Source: an uncultured Oscillospiraceae bacterium | Lineage (GTDB): Bacteria > Bacillota > Clostridia > Oscillospirales > Oscillospiraceae | Assembly: GCA_947599875.1 (NCBI GenBank) | Contig: CANQFV010000016.1 | Location: 1-54,794, forward strand | Direction: 5' to 3' | DNA: 54,794 bases | In this document: positions 6,796 through 54,794 of the stretch, in pieces | How the letters are laid out: each line of letters opens with the position of its first letter | Position numbering within the stretch: the stretch's first letter is position 1 | The notes under the pieces: generated by a model | What the model saw: only the letters and a program-made list of their open reading frames with translations | Databases searched by the model: none | Told to the model about the DNA's origin: nothing | Position numbers and translations under genes: made by a program

Positions 6796-9213
6796 ATGTT
6801 CAAGGACAAAAAGGATTTTACAAGACAGCTGGAAAACTCCGCGGTGGCCAACTACGGCAAGCCCTTTGGGAAGCTGGAGCCGAAGCTGAAATATCAGGCC
6901 CTGGCAAGGCTCATCGCCTCCAACGCCCGGAATGTCCGGGTCATGGCTGACACGGCACGTCAGGAGGAGAAGAAGCGGGTCTACTACTTCTCTATGGAGT
7001 TCCTCATGGGCAAGCTCTTAGAGAATTACATCATGAATTTCGGCATCCGCGACGTGGTGGAGGAGGGTCTGGCCGACTACGGCGTGACCATCGAGGAGCT
7101 TGCGGCGGAGGAGCAGGACGCGGGCCTGGGCAACGGGGGCCTGGGGCGTCTGGCCGCCTGCTTTATCGACTCCCTGGCGTCCTTGGGCTACATCGGGCAG
7201 GGCAACGGCATCCGTTACCGCTACGGCCTGTTCAGCCAGAGGATCGTCAACGGCTGTCAGGTGGAGGATCCGGACAACTGGCTGGAGGACGGCTACCCCT
7301 GGGAGATCGAGCGCCCGGAGGAGGCCGTGAAGGTGCGCTTCGGCGGCACAGTGGTCCACAAATACTCCGGCAACTCCATGAACTTTGAGTGGACGGGCGG
7401 GGAGGAGATCCTGGCCGTCCCCTACGACGTGCCCATCGTGGGCTACGGCGGGCAGCTTGTGAACAACCTGCGGCTGTGGAGCGCCGAGCCGGCCAGAGAG
7501 AACTTTGACATGGACGCCTTTAACCGGGGGGATTACGCCGGGGCCATGAAATTCCGCTCCGACGTGGAGGCCATCACCTCCGTGCTGTACCCCAACGACA
7601 ACGCCGACCCCGGCAAGGTGCTGCGCCTGAAGCAGGAGTATATGTTCGTGGCGGCGGGGCTGAAGTCCATCCTGCGCTACTATAAGCGGGAGTACGGCAA
7701 GCACGCCTGGAAGCGCTTCCCGGAGCTGATTGCCATCCACACCAACGACACCCACCCGGCCCTGTGCGCCCCGGAGCTTCTGCGCCTGCTCATCGACGAG
7801 GAGGGGCTGGACTGGGATACGGCCTGGGATATTGTGACCCGCTCCATCTCCTACACCAACCACACCATCCTGCCCGAGGCGCTGGAGAAGTGGCCCATCG
7901 ACATGTTCCAGAGGCTCCTGCCCAGGGTCTACGACTTTGTGGAGGAGATCGACCGCCGGTACAGGGAGAGCTTCAGCAAGAACCGGGAGGCCAATCAGGA
8001 GCTGCTGATGAACACCGCCATCCTCTGGGGCGGAAAGGTGCGCATGGCCAACCTGTCCATTATCGCCGGCCACGCCGTCAACGGGGTGGCGGCCCTCCAC
8101 ACCGAGATCTTAAAGCACGACGTGCTGCGGGACTTCTACGCCCTGACGCCGGAGAAATTCAACAACAAGACAAACGGCGTGACCCACCGGCGTTTCCTGG
8201 CCCAGGCCAACCCCTCCTACGCCGCCCTGATCACCGAGGCCATCGGCGACAAGTGGTACACGGACGCCACGGAGCTGGGGAAGCTCCGGGAGTTTGAGGA
8301 CGACCCCTCCTTCCTGGACAAGGCGGCCAAGAGCAAGGCCAAAAACAAGCAGGTGCTGGCCAGGTACATCAAGGACACCACCGGCCTCATCGTGGACGCG
8401 GACTCCATCTTCGATATCCAGGTCAAGCGCTTCCACGCGTACAAGCGGCAGCTGCTGAACCTGTTCAAGATCATGGATCTGTACAACAGGATCTTGGAGG
8501 ATCCCAACTTCGATATGCGGCCCACCACCTTCATCTTCGCCGGGAAGGCCGCCCAGGGCTATGAATTTGCCAAGAACACCATCCGGCTTGTGAACTCCGT
8601 GGCGGACGTGGTCAACACCGACTCCCGCGTCCGGGGCCGCATCCGGGTGGCGTTTATCCCCAACTTCTCCGTGAGCAACGGGCAGCTCATCTACCCGGCC
8701 GCGGACATCTCCGAGCAGATCTCCACCGCCGGCATGGAGGCCAGCGGCACCGGGTGCATGAAGTTTATGATGAATGGTGCCCTGACCCTGGGCACCCTGG
8801 ACGGGGCCAACGTGGAGATCGTGGAGCAGGTGGGCTTTGACAACGCGGAGATCTTCGGCCTGAAGACGGAGGAGATCGCGGAGCTGAAGCGCAGCTGGAG
8901 CTACTTCGCCAGGGGCGAGTACGAGGCCAATCCCAGGCTGCGCCGCGTGGTGGATCAGCTCACCGACGGCACCTACGCCAAGCTCTCCGGCGGGTTTGAC
9001 AGCGTATACTCCAACCTGATGAACTCCAATGACGAGTTCTTCGTCCTGAAGGACTTCGCCCCCTATGTGGAGGCGTGGCACCGGCTGGAGAACCTCTACG
9101 GCAGGAAGCAGGAGTGGTTCAAAAAGTCCGTCCACAACACCGCCTGTTCCGGCATCTTCTCCTCCGACCGCACCATTCGGGAGTACGCGGAGGATGTGTG
9201 GAAACTTAATTAA
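6796..9213 (+). CDS. glgP: Glycogen/starch phosphorylase
   Basis: This PLP-dependent enzyme (GT35) releases glucose 1-phosphate from glycogen ends. The 805-residue protein has the family hallmarks: MEFLMGKLLENYI, DAGLGNGGLGRLAACF, IHTNDTHPA, TNHTILPEALEKW, and the cofactor region EASGTGCMKFMMNGALTLG with the PLP lysine at about residue 656. The residue two before the lysine is Cys, where most family members have Asn (GTGNMKF). AAGGAG precedes the ATG. The gap to glgB is about 70 bases with a small GC hairpin, so read-through from glgB is likely. The stop codon is embedded in the first hairpin of a family D element. Confidence 0.96.
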   Translation: MFKDKKDFTRQLENSAVANYGKPFGKLEPKLKYQALARLIASNARNVRVMADTARQEEKKRVYYFSMEFLMGKLLENYIMNFGIRDVVEEGLADYGVTIEELAAEEQDAGLGNGGLGRLAACFIDSLASLGYIGQGNGIRYRYGLFSQRIVNGCQVEDPDNWLEDGYPWEIERPEEAVKVRFGGTVVHKYSGNSMNFEWTGGEEILAVPYDVPIVGYGGQLVNNLRLWSAEPARENFDMDAFNRGDYAGAMKFRSDVEAITSVLYPNDNADPGKVLRLKQEYMFVAAGLKSILRYYKREYGKHAWKRFPELIAIHTNDTHPALCAPELLRLLIDEEGLDWDTAWDIVTRSISYTNHTILPEALEKWPIDMFQRLLPRVYDFVEEIDRRYRESFSKNREANQELLMNTAILWGGKVRMANLSIIAGHAVNGVAALHTEILKHDVLRDFYALTPEKFNNKTNGVTHRRFLAQANPSYAALITEAIGDKWYTDATELGKLREFEDDPSFLDKAAKSKAKNKQVLARYIKDTTGLIVDADSIFDIQVKRFHAYKRQLLNLFKIMDLYNRILEDPNFDMRPTTFIFAGKAAQGYEFAKNTIRLVNSVADVVNTDSRVRGRIRVAFIPNFSVSNGQLIYPAADISEQISTAGMEASGTGCMKFMMNGALTLGTLDGANVEIVEQVGFDNAEIFGLKTEEIAELKRSWSYFARGEYEANPRLRRVVDQLTDGTYAKLSGGFDSVYSNLMNSNDEFFVLKDFAPYVEAWHRLENLYGRKQEWFKKSVHNTACSGIFSSDRTIREYAEDVWKLN

Positions 9214-9420
9214 ATTGAAAAGGGCGCTGCCCTTTTCAATTTAGGGGGATTGCCGGCCCCCTGCGCGCACGGCCCGAAGGGCCGCACACTCCGGGGGCCT
9301 GAGAGGGCATTTTTCCAAGGCACATGTCCTTGGAAAAATGATTGAAATTGATTCGCGTCTGCGGACGCGAAATCTGCGATGCCAAACTTTTTTCCGACGT
9401 ACATGCCGCCGGAAAAAATA
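9212..9420 (+). repeat. Multi-hairpin element D1 between glgP and glgC
   Basis: This gap holds a chain of hairpins. H1 begins in the glgP stop codon (AAATTGAAAAGGG and complement). H2 has lower stem GGCCCCC/GGGGGCC, internal loop TGCGC...ACACT and apical stem CGGCCC/GGGCCG. H3 is ATTTTTCCAAGG/CCTTGGAAAAAT around CATGT. A second H3-like hairpin follows (TTTTTTCCG...CGGAAAAAA). The linkers and loops match other D copies in the window although the stem sequences do not. It may act on the glgP 3' end or tune expression of the following glgC; this is inference. Confidence 0.75.
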
Positions 9421-18276: not shown

Positions 18277-18452
18277 CTGTCGGAAAAAGCCCTGAGGGGC
18301 CTTTTCCGACAAGGGGAACGTGCGAATTCTCGGAGCGAAATTAGAATTTCGCTCCGGGAATTCTGCTGCCGCGCCGCAGCGCACGGCCAAGGCCGCACGT
18401 TTGCGCGGCAAGAGGGATTTTTTGCAAGGCGCATGTCCTTGCAAAAAATATT
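18277..18452 (+). repeat. Multi-hairpin element D2 after pgi
   Basis: Four successive hairpins are visible. H0 is TGTCGGAAAA/TTTTCCGACA. H1 has a stem starting GAATTCtCGGAGCGAAATT paired with its complement. H2 has lower stem GCCGCGC/GCGCGGC and apical CGGCC/GGCCG. H3 is ATTTTTTGCAAGG/CCTTGCAAAAAAT around CATGT. The linkers GTGCG, CTGCT and AAGAGGGATTTTTT match other copies. It is oriented with the upstream gene. Confidence 0.75.
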
Positions 18453-19712: not shown

Positions 19713-19960
19713 TGGCTTGAAAGGCCGCAAAGATTTGCTGGCGGGGGTGGTTTTCAGCGTGTTTCTTACCCTGACAGTAGACTTTGCGGCCTTTCAATGC
19801 CAGTTAAGACGCGTGCGGAAAGGGCCGCTCGAATTCTGCGGAATTCGAGTGGCCCTTTCCTGCTGCCGCGCTGTGCGACCAGTCTGCGGACTGGACACTT
19901 GCGCGGCAAGAGGGATTTTTTGCGAGGCAAAGCCCCGCAAAAAATATTTGAAATGGGGGT
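19713..19960 (+). repeat. Multi-hairpin element D3
   Basis: The element opens with an interrupted inverted repeat, TGGCTTGAAAGGCCGCAAAG pairing with CTTTGCGGCCTTTCAATGCC about 50 bases later. H1 follows (GGAAAGGGCCGCTCGAATTC and near-complement). H2 has lower stem GCCGCGC/GCGCGGC and apical CCAGTC/GACTGG. H3 is TTTTTTGCGAGG...CCCCGCAAAAAA. It is in the same orientation as the preceding gene and starts 6 bases after its stop codon. Confidence 0.75.
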
Positions 19961-20680
19961 GTGGAAATCGAGGCAGCTTCCGTTGACCGGAGGCCTTGAC
20001 CCGGCGTTACAGAGGGACGGTTCTTTAGTCCCACCTGCGGTGTGACAAAAAAACCGTCCCTCAGTCCCGCCTTTCACGAAGGAACTTCCCGTCCTCTGAG
20101 GAGGTGGGACAAAGGGGACGGTTCTTTAGTCCCATCGGAGCAAAGCGGAGATGGGACTAAAGAACCGTCCCCGTGTCACACCGGCTTCCCTGTGATGCTT
20201 GACGCTGCCCTTTCCCCGTTTATTATACCGCCCTCAATCAACGACATGGGCCGCCGTGGGCGGCGGCCCCTACGACAAATTTTAATATTTTCCGTCTTAA
20301 CGCAGCCGATCTGTCGCTCAACCCGCCCGGGCCGATGAGGTCATCGGCCCCTACAAGGGAGTCTTGCAGACAGTAGGGGCTGCCTCTCTTGGCGGCCCGC
20401 CCCTCAATTTTGCATCATTGTCCGAATCAACGGCATTTGGTGTATGTAGGGGCCGACGACCTCGTCGGCCCGGGTTTCGATAACCACCGGGTATCGATTC
20501 AACGCAGCTCAAACGACACGGGCCGCCGTGGGCGGCGGCCCGTACAGGCTTCCCGGTGACATCAAGGCCTTGCTCCGGTGTGACACGGGGACGGTTCTTT
20601 AGTCCCACCTGCGGTGTGACAAAAAAACCGTCCCCGCTGTCCCACCTCCTCAAAAGACGGAACTCTCCCCGATCTGCACC
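19961..20680. repeat. Mosaic repeat island 2 (families A and B)
   Basis: No gene is visible. A-type GGGACGGTT palindromes occupy about 19996-20185 and 20584-20660. B-type palindromes with GGCCGATGAGG and GGGCCGCCGTGGGCGGCGGCCC occupy about 20240-20360, with degenerate B units at about 20375-20545. The island is bracketed by D elements in opposite orientation. Confidence 0.8.
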
Positions 20681-20926
20681 CCCAAATTTAATATTTTTTC
20701 CAAGGACATGTGCCTTGGAAAAAATCCCTCTTGCCGCGCAAACGTGCGCCCTTGGGCGTGCGCTGCAGCGCGGCAGCAGGAAAGGGCCGCTCGAATCCCG
20801 CGCAATTCGAGCGGCCCTTTCCGCACGCTCCCCCTTGGCATTGGAAGGCCGCAGGGGTTACGCAAAAGCTCGGAAAGGCGCTGAAAGCCGCCCTCGCCAG
20901 AAGACTCCTGCGGCCTTTCAAGCCAG
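20681..20926 (-). repeat. Multi-hairpin element D4 (inverted copy)
   Basis: Read on the minus strand this has the same order as D3: an interrupted TTGAAAGGCCGC-type inverted repeat, H1 (GGAAAGGGCCGCTCGAATT), H2 (GCCGCGC/GCGCGGC with a longer apical stem) and H3 (TTTTTTCCAAGG/CCTTGGAAAAAA around the ACATG core). Its outer end lies 26 bases from the citrate synthase stop codon. In this orientation it is read antisense to citrate synthase's downstream flank. Confidence 0.7.
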
Positions 20927-26810: not shown

Positions 26811-27108
26811 TAACCAGTTAAAGGCTGTGATGGGAACAAAGGCGTTCGTATCGGATCGCAGAGAGCCGCCGGTCGGTGTAAGGCGGCGTCGGGCGGGCGC
26901 TTGTACTCCTCCCGGAGCCGTCGGCTGAAAAGCTCCCCCTGGGGGCGGCTTAGTAGGCTGGAACGGGTTCTCCCGTTATAGAGAGGCCGCGTTGCCTGAC
27001 GCGGGTTGAGCGGGCGCATGACGCCAAGAAGAGTGGTACCGCGGAAGATTTCTTTCGTCTCTTTATCCAAAAATATTTTGCGTATTTTGGGTAAACGAGA
27101 CTTTTTTT
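26811..27108 (+). promoter_or_regulatory. T-box leader, probable tRNA-Leu sensor (specifier CTC)
   Basis: The leader has the canonical T-box layout. Stem I closes with GGCT/AGCC and GGGA/TCCC. Its distal part has the AGAGAG bulge and the CCGCC/GGCGG hairpin with loop GGTCGGTG. The specifier loop contains CTC (26906-26908), a leucine codon. Stem III with AGTAGG and the F-box (AACGGG/CCCGTTA) follows. The T-box itself, GAGTGGTACCGCGG, is at 27031-27044. The competing terminator is described separately. By analogy with ilv-leu leaders of Bacillus, uncharged leucyl-tRNA should stabilise the antiterminator and switch the operon on. The codon choice is my reading of the loop and is less certain than the T-box call. 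Confidence 0.92.
27055..27108 (+). terminator. T-box-controlled intrinsic terminator
   Basis: GTCTC-TTTATCC-AAAAATA pairs with TATTTT-GGGTAAA-GAGAC and is followed by seven T residues. It lies directly after the T-box antiterminator sequence and 31 bases before the leuA start. Confidence 0.9.
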
Positions 27109-28895: not shown

Positions 28896-32242
<3,347 letters not shown>

Positions 32243-32249
32243 ATAAACC

Positions 32250-32455
32250 GGCTTGAAAGGCCGCAAAGCGGCCTCAGCCTGTCGAAAAAGCCCTGCGGGC
32301 TTTTCCGACAAAGGGGAACGTGCGGGAAATTTCTCTGAATTTTGCGAAATTCAGAGAAATTTCCCTGCCGTCACGCTGCGCGCACGGCCCGGAGGGCCGT
32401 ACACTTGCGTGACAAAAGGGATTTTTTCCGACGCACATGTCGCCGGAAAAAAGTT
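32250..32455 (+). repeat. Multi-hairpin element D5 after ilvC
   Basis: The element begins 7 bases after the ilvC stop codon. A GGCCGCaaaGCGGCC hairpin is followed by H0 (TGTCGaAAAAGCCC/GGGCTTTTCCGACA), H1 (stem GGGAAATTTCTCTGAATTT with its complement), and H2 with lower stem GTCACGC/GCGTGAC, loop TGCGC...ACACTT and apical CGGCCC/GGGCCG. H3 is ATTTTTTCCG...CGGAAAAAA. The H1 and H2 stems differ from those of D2 and D3 but remain paired. Confidence 0.75.
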
Positions 32456-32474
32456 TGAACTTGAGTTTTTTGAC

Positions 32475-32648
32475 AAACTGAGGCCGCAAAGCGGCCTTTC
32501 AATGCCAGGGGGACGCGTGCGGGATATGATTTCAAATCAGAATTTGAAATCATATCCCTGCTGTCGCCCTGCGCCCATGCCCCGCGGGTACACACTGGGG
32601 CGACATAGGGGATTTTTTGCAGGGCGCATGTCCTTGCAAATAATATTG
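32475..32648 (+). repeat. Multi-hairpin element D6, tandem with D5
   Basis: The order is the same as D5: AGGCCGC/GCGGCCT, linker ending GACGCGTGC, H1 with stem GGGATATGATTTCAAAT and its exact complement, and H2 with lower stem GTCGCCC/GGGCGAC and short apical stem. H3 is ATTTTTTGCAgGG...CCtTGCAAAtaAT, here with a broken A tract. The pair D5-D6 fills nearly all of the 478-base gap between ilvC and the next gene. Confidence 0.75.
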
Positions 32649-32721
32649 GATCGATACTTTGTGATTTGAATCAGTTTGCTGTCTCAAATCACTTAAAAGG
32701 ATGCTGTGAAGGGGGAGGACA

Positions 32722-33090
32722 ATGGACAACGCGGAAAACCTGTGCCAGAGCGGCAGGCACCAAGTGGTGACCCTCTGCGGCAGCACCCGTTTTAAGGAGG
32801 ATTTTCTGAAAGCGCAGGAGGCCCTGACCCTGGCGGGCAAGCTTGTGATTTCCCTGGGCTTTTTCGAGCATGCCGAGGGCAAGACCATTACCCCTGAGAC
32901 AGAGGCCCTGCTGGCGGATATCCACCGGCAGAGGATCGACATGTCCGACTCCATTTTCGTCATCAATCGGGACGATTACATCGGCAAAAGCACCGCCTCC
33001 GAGATCGCCTACGCCAGGGCCGCGGGGAAGAGCGTGAGCTTTATGTTCCCCCACGGCGCGCAGGCGCGCACGGGGGAGGTTCAGGAATGA
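32722..33090 (+). CDS. Nucleoside 2-deoxyribosyltransferase-like protein
   Basis: This 122-residue cytoplasmic protein has the compact Rossmann-like fold signature of the NDT/RCL superfamily. It shows [17 protein letters not shown] at the N-terminus, an acidic helix [17 protein letters not shown], and [20 protein letters not shown] near the end, the usual substrate-loop serines and glutamate. Proteins of this group hydrolyse or transfer deoxyribose or act on nucleotides, but many have no assigned substrate. Its role among branched-chain genes is unclear. Its stop codon overlaps the leader of ilvD, which shows that it is in the same operon. Confidence 0.7.
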
Positions 33091-40784: not shown

Positions 40785-42113
40785 CCCGCAGGGGAATTTC
40801 CGGGCTGTCCCCGGAAGGGGGCTTTTCCCAACGGGAAATGAGGTGTCCGCCCGAAGGGCGGGGAAGGCGCTTTCAACGCCGGATGATCCCCCCACGGGGG
40901 GAAAAAGGTGTCCGCCCGAAGGGCGGACGGGGTATGTTACTTTCTCCTCTTTTGTGTTGACAAAAGAGGAGAAAGTAACAAAGAGGAGAAAAACAACCAG
41001 GGGAGGGATTTCGATTTTCCCTCCCCTGGACCCCACCTTTTAAAAACGACCAGTTAGGGGGCCTGCGGGCCCCCTACTGGAGAAACCCCCGGGGAGTCCC
41101 CCGGGGGTTTTCTGGACGAATCGGCGCGATGAGCCACCCGGTGGTACGTCGCGCCCTTTGGACTGAGCTGGTGCGGGACGGGGCGGGTTTCCAGAGACGA
41201 CACCTTTCTCCGTCTTCTGAGGAGGTGGGACAAAGGGGACGGTTCTTTTGTACCACCAGTGCGTACACTGGTGTGACTAAAGAACCGTCCCCACGTCACA
41301 CCGGCTTTAAGGTGACGCACGACGCCGCCCTTCCCCGTGCCCCACAGGGGACGGTTCTTGTGAACCATTGTCGCTTGCGCTCCAATGTCCCACAAAAACC
41401 GTCCCCGTGAGGCAATGATGCCACTCAGTTATAACACCGGCTTCCGGGGACGCTTGACGCCACCCTTCTCCGTAACACCGGCTTTAAGGTGACGCCTGAC
41501 GCCGCCCTTCCCTGTTTCTTTTGCACCCCTCAATCATCGCGACACGGGCCGCCGTGGGCGGCGGCCCCTACGGCAAATTTTAAAGTTTTCCGTCTTAACG
41601 CAGCCGATCTGTCACCAAACCCGCCCGGGCCGATGAGGTCATCGGCCCCTACAGGGGGACTCTTACGGACAGTAGGGGCCGCTGCTGTCGATAACTCCTT
41701 GGACGGAGGCCATTCTCGTTGAACGAGACTCTTGACCCGGCGTTACAGAGGGACGGTTCTTTAGTCCCACCTGCGGTGTGACAAAAAAACCGTCCCTCAA
41801 GTCCCGCCTTTACCGGAAGTCTGCAAAACGCTATACGACACACGAGCGTGTGGGTGCTCAGCACCAATTCGTCCCCTGTACTCCTGGGCAGCTCCCCGGG
41901 GGTTTCTCCAGTAGGGGGCCCGCAGGCCCCCTAACTGGTCGGTTCAAGGGGGTCCAGGGGGGAAATCGAAATCCCCCCTGGTTGTTTTTCTCCTCTTTGT
42001 TACTTTCTCCTCTTTTGTCAACACAAAAGAGGAGAAAGTAAAATACCCCGTCCGCCCTTCGGGCGGACACCTTGTTCCCCTTCGGGGAAGCTCCCATGCG
42101 CCCTTTGGGCGCT
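40785..42113. repeat. Mosaic repeat island 4 (C inverted, A, B, A, C direct)
   Basis: A C block in minus orientation (about 40785-41215) leaves ridA. A palindromes follow at about 41220-41310 and 41345-41410. The gap continues with B palindromes (about 41540-41690), another A unit (41745-41815) and a C block in plus orientation (about 41840-42113) that ends at the cinA stop codon. The two C blocks form a large inverted repeat about 1.3 kb across. No gene is credible. Confidence 0.85.
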
Positions 42114-45975: not shown

Positions 45976-46016
45976 GATCCGTACTCCTTTTTTAATCTGG
46001 CGGAAGGGGATGGGTG

Positions 46017-46125
46017 CGGGAACCCCGGCGGGAATTCAGCAAAATAAACTCCGGGGTTCCTCTTGTCGCGCCGGCGCGGCAAGAGGGCTTTTTTGTGGGG
46101 GCAAGCCCCGCAAAAAAGATTGGAT
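46017..46125 (+). repeat. Compact D-type element D8 between thiI and comM
   Basis: H1 is GGAACCCCGG/CCGGGGTTCC. H2 is shortened to TGtCGCGCC/GGCGCGGCA, without the internal loop. H3 is TTTTTTGTGGGG/CCCCGCAAAAAA. The AAGAGGG linker before the T tract is intact. It is antisense to both neighbouring genes, unlike most other copies. Confidence 0.55.
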
Positions 46126-49692: not shown

Positions 49693-49870
49693 AAGCCCTT
49701 TGGGCTTTCAATCCCAAGGGGATGCGTGCGGAAAGGGCCACTCGAATTCTGCGGAATTCGAGTGGCCCTTTCCTGCTGCCGCGCTGCGCGACCAGTCTGC
49801 GGACTGGTCACTTGCGCGGCAAGAGGGATTTTTTCCGACGTACATGCCGCCGGAAAAAATAATTGAAATG
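49687..49870 (+). repeat. Multi-hairpin element D7 after the CapA-type gene
   Basis: H0 (GGTTGAAAGCCC/GGGCTTTCAATCC) contains the stop codon of the gene. H1 is GGAAAGGGCCACTCGAATTC with its exact complement. H2 has GCCGCGC/GCGCGGC, internal loop TGCGC...CACTT and apical ACCAGTC/GACTGGT. H3 is TTTTTTCCG...CGGAAAAAA around ACATG. H1 and H2 closely match D3, with paired changes in both stems. Confidence 0.75.
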
Positions 49871-50290
49871 GGGGGGAGCATCGCCGGGAAGCCTGTAGGG
49901 GCCGATGACCTCATCGGCCCGGGCGGGTTGGGTGACAGAGTGGTTGCGTTAAGATAGAAAACTTTAAAATATGCCGTAGGGGCCGCCGCCCACGGCGGCC
50001 CGTGTCGTTGATTGAGGGCGGTATAATAAACGGGGAAAGGCGGCGATGCGGCGTTACAGAGGGACGGTTCTTTTGTCACACCTTCGCTTCGCTGCGGTGG
50101 TACAAAAGAACCGTCCCTCAGTCCCGCCTTTTTCGGAGGAGCTTCCCGTCTTTTGAGGAGGTGGGACAAAGGGGACGGTTTCTTTGTACCACCAGTGCGC
50201 ACACTGGTGTGACTAAGGAACCGTCCCCGTGTCACACCGGCTTTCCGGCTTTCCGGCACACCGGCTTTCCGGCACGCCGGGTTGCGCACC
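49871..50290. repeat. Mosaic repeat island 5 (B, A and a short tandem)
   Basis: A B module (about 49893-50005) is followed by A palindromes (about 50058-50250). The end has a small tandem of CCGGCTTTCCGGCac units (about 50236-50282). Sequence from 50290 to the nifJ promoter is not repeated in the window and has no gene. Confidence 0.8.
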
Positions 50291-54113: not shown

Positions 54114-54794
54114 GCACCCGCCCGCAGGGCGGGGGGAGGCCCCCGGATGGGGGCGGGAGGTTCCCCGACGGGGGAAGGGTGTCCGCCTGAAAGGCGGACG
54201 GGGAGGTTCTCCCGTAGGGGAAAAGGTGTCCGCCCGTAGGGCGGACGGGGGCGATTTACTTTCTCCTCTTTTGTGTTGACAAAAGAGGAGAAAGTAACAA
54301 AGAGGAGAAAAACAACCAGAGGGGGATTTCGATTTTCCCCCTCTGGACTCCCCTTTTAAAAACGACCAGTTAGGGGGCCGCGGCCCCCTACTGGAGACAC
54401 CCCCGGGGAGTCCTCCGGGGGTTTTCTGGACGAATAGGTGTTGAGCAGCCACCTGGTGGTACGTCGCGCCCTTGGGACTGAGTCTGTGGTGGTCGGGGGC
54501 GTGTTCACGGAGACGACACCCTTCACCGCAACCGGTAGCTTTCTCCCGGCGTTACAGAGGGACGGTTCTTTAGTCCCACCTGCGGTGTGACAAAAAAACC
54601 GTCCCTCAGTCCCGCTTTTTTCGGGGGCCTGGTGGCGGTGTGCGGGGGAATTGCCGTGATACGGCAGTAAGCTGTAACGCTGGGGTAATTCCTCCGTCCT
54701 TTGAGTAGATGGGACAACGGGGACGGTTTCTTTGTACCACCAGTGCGCACACTGGTGTGACTAAGGAACCGTCCCCGTGTCACACCGGCTGCCC
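54112..54794. repeat. Mosaic repeat island 6 (C inverted, then A)
   Basis: A C block in minus orientation (about 54112-54530) follows the nifJ terminator directly. A palindromes follow (about 54553-54620 and 54705-54790) and run off the window end. No gene is credible. Confidence 0.8.

Follow-up and report, generated by a model that had tools for sequence, protein, structure and literature searches.

Four-hairpin miniature elements in an Oscillospiraceae genome and their probable link to IS1182-family transposases

Family D of this uncultured Oscillospiraceae bacterium is a family of structured miniature elements which occurs across an order and, judged from sequence, is tied to IS1182-family insertion sequences (IS) by its ends and its target behaviour. 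Its members, each roughly 200 bp long, are probably non-autonomous transposable elements mobilised by an IS1182-family transposase, which would recognise the ends CAGYYTGTCRAAAAA. The case is strong for the class with TGTC/GACA ends, which includes copy D5; the TGGC/GCCA class, which forms the majority in the source genome, presumably spread in the same way. Several observations count in favour of mobility: the nesting of D5 in another copy, the uninterrupted hairpin in relatives, hairpin duplications at the ends, an IS with the same ends, presence and absence of D at one orthologous site, location at gene 3' ends and the precedent of the staphylococcal elements IS1272 and TnSha1. All but the precedent can be read in the sequences, as can the covariation of the stems and the independence of the modules. 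"The window" below is the whole stretch of 54,794 nucleotides that was analysed.

The plan of family D comprises four hairpins, H0 to H3; D5 and D6 are both copies of it. D5 is a complete element of 206 bp (32275..32480, plus strand) with the left end CAGCCTGTCGAAAAA (32275-32289) and the right end TTTTTTGACAAACTG (32466-32480). On the plus strand it contains H0 (TGTCGAAAAAGCCC..GGGCTTTTCCGACA; 32280..32310), H1 with a stem of 19 bp (32324..32365), H2 (32370..32413) and H3 (32422..32452). D6 (32248..32650, plus strand) is interrupted by D5 and its right end is undefined; its H0 is split in two (approximately 32248-32274 and 32481-32507) and is followed by H1 (32521-32558), H2 (32563-32604) and H3 (32613-32643). 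The cores (H1-H3) of D2 (18319..18452), D3 (19812..19948) and D7 (49725..49863) lie on the plus strand; that of D4 (20690..20827) lies on the minus strand and faces D3. D1 (9197..9343, plus strand; model match 71.7 bits) lacks H1, and a reduced copy (46013..46121, plus strand; 54.9 bits) lacks the H2 apex. A copy in another locus (L004, 1339-1543) has extra hairpins in its H2 apex.

A preliminary description of the window had assigned a shared plan to D1-D7. This holds in general, but D1 has no H1 and the extra 5' hairpin H0 had been overlooked. The linkers between the hairpins are as first noted, and so are the H2 lower stems, GTCACGC/GCGTGAC in D5, GTCGCCC/GGGCGAC in D6, GGCCCCC/GGGGGCC in D1 and GCCGCGC/GCGCGGC in D2, D3, D4 and D7; both are read directly. 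The paired H3 stems CCAAGG/CCTTGG and GCAAGG/CCTTGC are likewise found in the sequence. A second dispersed hairpin repeat, GGGGACGGTTCTTT..AAAGAACCGTCCCC, is present in the window at 2-61, 424-492, 20103-20171, 41233-41292, 50169-50228 and 54717-54776; where two D copies face each other, it also occupies the interval between them, as at 19948-20690.

D5 and D6 had been described as lying in tandem. They are adjacent, but D5 sits inside the H0 of D6, between 17-bp copies of the whole palindromic H0 hairpin, and its ends are CAGYYTGTCRAAAAA. The duplicated target is AGGCCGCAAAGCGGCCT, with its left copy at 32258..32274 and its right copy at 32481..32497, neither assigned to a strand. When D5 is removed, the flanks match, by eye, the uninterrupted H0 found at the same place in relatives.

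Copies of D are numerous. With up to three mismatches allowed, the linker AAGAGGGATTTTTT occurs 19 times in the window, where 2.1 matches would be expected; 0 of 100 shuffles reach 19. A pattern of linker plus H3 has 166 matches in the whole 2.73-Mb genome (87 forward, 79 reverse); the same pattern read backwards has 0. A structure-aware collection, which the preliminary description had proposed, was carried out with a covariance model built from 15 copies, and it yields many copies in the genome and its relatives. The 2.73-Mb genome has at least 150; this is a lower bound because exactly 150 candidates were scored.

Model matches at E<=0.001 are found in 33 of 60 genomes: the source genome, 30 of 33 genomes of the same genus and two from other families, one of which has a single weak match only. 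At this threshold the same-genus genomes G003, G007 and G021 have no match. At E<=1e-6, an order-wide sample of 245 genomes from 127 genera has matches in 25 genomes and 14 genera. Inspected by eye, the 11 distant copies keep the general plan; the CATGT loop of H3 is present in nine, and an added 3' hairpin followed by AACTCTGC is also present in nine of the 11. A 21-base pattern matches at least 67 stretches among named genomes. Of the matches listed, 62 are in 'Lapin' MAGs of Oscillospiraceae from rabbit gut; five others (L091, L103, L119, L130, L140) have no model match at E<=0.001 and are probably due to chance. A 38-base exact pattern has no match among named genomes, and plasmid and phage records contain no match to bases 32292-32480.

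The preliminary description did not recognise the element as a known family, and the Rfam search agrees: the window and 13 further loci contain no match at gathering score for it. A permissive Rfam scan of 32230-32720 returns microRNA families and RsaE only, all far below gathering scores. The sole gathering-score match in the window is a T-box leader (RF00230, 95.3 bits, 26818-27065) upstream of the branched-chain amino acid gene cluster.

Copies were compared using the best 84 of 195 matches in relatives (at least 96.9 bits) and the best 133 of 279 in the source genome (at least 71.7 bits); the remaining matches are, to judge by their listing, mostly fragments, degraded copies or palindromes matched on the opposite strand. 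Once duplicates were removed, the set held 209 copies (77 from relatives, 132 from the source genome), six of which cannot be split into modules. The source-genome set is incomplete because the model scan left out some loci, and the relatives' set leans towards well-kept copies because loci were obtained by score or linker pattern.

Both end repeats, as a pattern, are found in 30 of the 209 copies. Only two of the 132 source-genome copies have both, D5 and one other, which counts against mobility; the TGGC/GCCA H0 class, the majority there, has no clear right end, and its flanks merge into other repeats. In 16 of the 30 end-bearing copies a whole hairpin is duplicated at the ends or within a few bases of them, with scores of 17-33; the maximum in 583 shuffled pairings is 14. 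Two of these cases (L139 and L104) have diverged hairpin copies. The other 14 count against mobility: three have partial repeats (L093, the second copy of L146, and L144), two have exact short repeats (8 bp in L094, 7 bp in L148) and nine have no duplication. Whole-hairpin duplication is also seen outside the end pattern, in L067 (35 bp) and L071, and in a locus from another genus (L296). Some duplicated hairpins are followed by T-rich sequence, as in terminators.

An autonomous IS with the same ends as D is found in genomes of the same genus. Among the PF13751 loci of the genus is a 1.5-kb IS whose ends read CAG[TC][CT]TGTCAAAAAA and whose transposases are 470-474 aa long; another copy of it (L267) has an altered C-terminus. 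The two IS transposases that were scanned both pass the NCBIfam IS1182 cut-off of 270 bits (371.9 and 385.1 bits). At seven distinct sites, spread over seven genomes, an IS1182-type element lies between direct repeats of a whole hairpin. The ends are D-type at five of these sites (G001, G011, G013, G015, G030) and variant at two (G020, G032); other IS loci have no whole-hairpin repeat or are cut at contig ends. Three IS1182-type elements (L259, L260, L262) have a different end repeat, GGGGCTGTGAAAAAA, and at L259 no whole-hairpin duplication is seen.

Transposase matches at E<=1e-10 are found in 15 of the 60 genomes. The source genome has no transposase match at this threshold and no PF13751 match, and the IS is also missing from several D-rich genomes among the 60; both facts weigh against the mobile reading, as does the interior of D, which by eye is not recognisably IS-derived.

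IS1272 and TnSha1, IS1182-family elements of staphylococci, target hairpins, several of which are confirmed terminators, and remove them (PMC5678879, PMC4923244, in their available text). They resemble the proposed partner of D in having an IS1182-family transposase, inverted-repeat targets that include several terminators, and no primary-sequence target consensus. In contrast to D, whose whole target hairpin is duplicated, they are described in these sources as removing or partly deleting the target hairpin, with no target duplication; D also differs in being gene-free and in having four hairpins. In the available text of PMC5678879, whole-hairpin duplication is drawn as possible pathway b. 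Within the papers accessible to a literature search, published whole-stem-loop duplication was found only as this possible pathway.

A mechanism can be proposed on this basis. The transposase would join the ends CAGYYTGTCRAAAAA at the feet of a palindromic hairpin, often behind a gene, and repair would duplicate the whole hairpin. Insertion would be mild for the host because a complete hairpin is left on each side. Copies would gather at gene 3' ends and insert into one another, as D5 did in the H0 of D6; they would outlast the loss of the transposase, and their hairpin modules would be exchanged.

Among copies with an upstream gene called, that gene is in the sense orientation for 111 of 128 in the source genome and 56 of 72 in relatives. 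Copies with both neighbours lie between convergent genes in 74 cases, tandem genes in 83 and divergent genes in six; all called gene pairs in the same loci, D sites included, are 82 convergent, 206 tandem and 48 divergent. Gene calls were made by a simple codon score and include at least one error: the call at D5 is divergent although the plus-strand ketol-acid reductoisomerase gene lies upstream. Between tandem genes, sense copies (62) outnumber antisense ones (21; p 7.5e-6). Among the 16 copies with a whole-hairpin duplication there are five sense and three antisense cases in tandem, too few to separate insertion bias from later selection.

The genes flanking D5 and D6 encode, by Pfam, acetolactate synthase, ketol-acid reductoisomerase and dihydroxy-acid dehydratase. 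Of 14 same-genus loci compared at the 3' end of ilvC, eight have a D copy and six have a short hairpin only; a contig-end fragment (L177) was left out of this comparison. Among the D copies at this site, L164 lacks H2, and L165 and L167 have a shortened H2. A small ORF of 122 aa with no Pfam match lies between ilvC and ilvD (32722-33090); by eye, it is present at this site in some relatives and missing in others.

The hairpins of D may terminate transcription. For H0 this suggestion comes solely from its appearance (A-run, GC stem, T-run) because the terminator scan of 32200-32720 does not mark H0, a result which counts against the mobile reading. The scan marks one terminator-like site, H3 of D5 on the minus strand; this is chance level, as shuffles average 0.7.

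The covariation noted in the preliminary description is real over many copies and far exceeds its controls, which were shuffling, swapping of arms and sliding of partners. In the 15 copies, both sides change in 22 of 47 pairs. Cells changed on both sides number 91, against 27.7 (sd 4.0) in 500 shuffles, none of which reaches 91; 96.4% of cells are paired against 83.7% in shuffles, with 0 of 500 reaching the observed value. When partners are slid by 1-3 columns, pairing falls to 42-53%. A larger set of 61 distinct H1s with 20-base arms was taken with no pairing filter (104 of the 209 copies were excluded, 98 by arm length or loop and six as unsplit). Here 97.3% of cells are paired, against 70.5% (maximum 74.7%) when whole arms are swapped between copies, and 349 both-sided changes are seen against 94.6 (maximum 140).

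What maintains this pairing is less clear-cut, and presumably both arm-to-arm copying and some selection on the minus strand contribute. It is conceivable, if on balance somewhat improbable, that DNA-level template switching between hairpin arms is the main source of the covariation, with little or no selection on structure. Selected RNA pairing would be expected to tolerate G-U on the working strand. H1 is the best-paired helix, and in it G-U (34) and A-C (42), summed over source genome and relatives, are about equally rare. At inner H1 positions, to which these mismatch counts are confined so that fixed loop positions do not confound them, G-U/A-C is 22/15 in the source genome and 12/27 in relatives, with no common preference.

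A difference at a single base pair separates 33 pairs of H1s; in 16 of them it is a full double change (10 transitions and 6 transversions; two of the 16 at the loop-closing pair), in 10 it is G-U, in four A-C and in three some other state. When up to three differences are allowed, transversions make up 116 of the 239 double changes; these pairwise counts depend on each other, and modules recombine, which weakens the argument. One base pair at the ilvC site reads A-T in D6 and L165 but T-A in L166. Since H1 has no G-U preference and has many double changes, transversions among them, the covariation may partly reflect arm-to-arm copying.

Template switching that copies one hairpin arm onto the other has a precedent (PMC8794818). 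In the available text of that source, both stem arms of RNA hairpins change in concert, as in D; its cases are RNA genes, whereas D is a repeat family in which loop inversion is rare in H1 and H2. Loop inversion was sought as a mark of template switching: H1 loops are TGCG in 168 copies and CGCA in three, and H2 loops are not inverted, which speaks against frequent copying of this kind. H0 loops of relatives do occur both ways (four AAA and four TTT; three GAA and three TTC), as template switching would allow; H0 mismatch counts are unreliable for source-genome copies with long loops. The strand preference of H2, H3 and H0 also speaks against template switching as the main source of the covariation.

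The preliminary description had taken covariation as an argument for selection on RNA or single-stranded DNA. Partial support comes from H2, H3 and H0, which favour the minus strand; the claim is not established, since the H1 evidence fits arm copying equally well. Of 203 copies, 193 fold more stably as the minus strand: 73 of 74 in relatives (mean 9.9 kcal/mol) and 120 of 129 in the source genome (5.8 kcal/mol). Control pieces of equal length from the left flank have an average strand difference of -0.66 kcal/mol. The minus strand is also more stable in 10 of 11 distant copies, and the folding z of D5 is -9.8 on the minus and -5.9 on the plus strand. The TGCGC/ACACT 'internal loop' of H2 is indeed open on the plus strand, but on the minus strand the same bases pair, partly as G-U; the fixed A-C of two H3 types likewise becomes G-U there. 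Part of the energy difference must come from the loops because H1 contributes to it yet its mismatches show no asymmetry. The preference of H2, H3 and H0 is consistent with selection on the minus strand; mutation bias could be another source of strand asymmetry.

These data, with the conserved loop orientation of H1 and H2 and the conservation of the element plan across genera, are what an RNA reading has in its favour. D would then be a selected structured RNA of about 190 nt, transcribed from the minus strand in the order H3-H2-H1-H0 with H0 as its 3' hairpin, and copies would be retained because this RNA serves either the element or the host. This is unlikely. H1 has no wobble preference, and a promoter scan of 32200-32720 gives two promoter-like sites, both on the plus strand, and none on the minus strand. 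Damaged copies persist at the ilvC site, and most copies are sense to the upstream gene, so that read-through would chiefly give a plus-strand transcript. On the minus strand, the linkers left unpaired are rich in C (UCCCUUUU and UUCCCCUUU; 32414-32421 and 32311-32323) and complementary to ribosome-binding-site-like sequence; they may resemble the C-rich small RNAs of Firmicutes.

The modules of D combine almost independently. In the source genome, mutual information has p 0.10 for H0 and H2 apex types (n=110), 0.81 for H0 and H3 types (n=113) and 0.32 for H2 apex and H3 types (n=120), with copies of unassigned type left out. One H1 sequence, GACCCGGC (12 copies), is combined with H2 and H3 of three types each and with several types of H0. 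Such combination requires recombination between copies or repeated module switching. A speculative and rather improbable extension of the mobile reading would join all these features: the hairpins would be cassettes that exchange freely, with linkage equilibrium across about 200 bp, DNA template switching would rewrite each of them from arm to arm, and the minus strand would be a structured RNA with C-rich unpaired linkers for spread or host use. If this were true, textbook covariation would largely arise from DNA copying, in a terminator-homing element found across an order.

Family D is very unlikely to be a plain immobile repeat of the 3'-UTR or REP-like kind, retained to terminate transcription or to stabilise mRNA. 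The upstream sense genes, the excess of sense copies between tandem genes and the REP-like GGGACGGTTC repeats which adjoin many source-genome copies would suit such a repeat; the end repeats, the nesting, the duplication of whole hairpins and the IS that shares its ends would not. REP/RAYT systems have a Y1 transposase as partner, and Y1 enzymes are not known to make target duplications when they move REPs. A single Y1_Tnp protein is encoded in the genome, and its locus (L319) contains the GGGACGGTTC motif, as in REP/RAYT systems. A REP/RAYT origin of D was set aside because of the target duplications; the putative partner of D is a DDE transposase, and the Y1_Tnp protein lies among a different repeat.

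With its probable IS1182-family partner, D can be set beside other known repeats. BOX, RUP and SPRITE of Streptococcus pneumoniae are, like D, highly folded intergenic repeats with many dispersed copies and mutual insertion; BOX is modular, and SPRITE is terminator-like and enriched near gene 3' ends, both as in D (PMC3049150, available text). Their description there gives them other sequences and another module plan, and its available text does not mention whole-hairpin target duplication or free combination of variable stems, both found in D. Prokaryotic MITEs, in the available text of PMC10969869, are short and gene-free, with terminal inverted repeats, target duplications, folded transcripts and presumed use of IS transposases. 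D5 is likewise short (206 bp) and gene-free with terminal inverted repeats (CAGCCTGTCGAAAAA / TTTTTTGACAAACTG), and 16 of the 30 end-bearing copies have a whole-hairpin target site duplication. Compared with MITEs in general, as treated in that text, D has GC-rich stems, palindromes as targets, duplications of 17-35 bp in clear cases and an interior structure conserved across genera.

Family D and the IS with the same ends provide sequence evidence, in both an IS and a miniature partner, for target duplication of a whole stem-loop, which the available text of PMC5678879 draws only as a possible pathway. They present terminators as safe landing sites, to the extent that the target hairpins act as such. 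Family D is also a large natural set for dividing compensatory change into selection and templated copying, and so bears on the use of covariation as proof of functional RNA.
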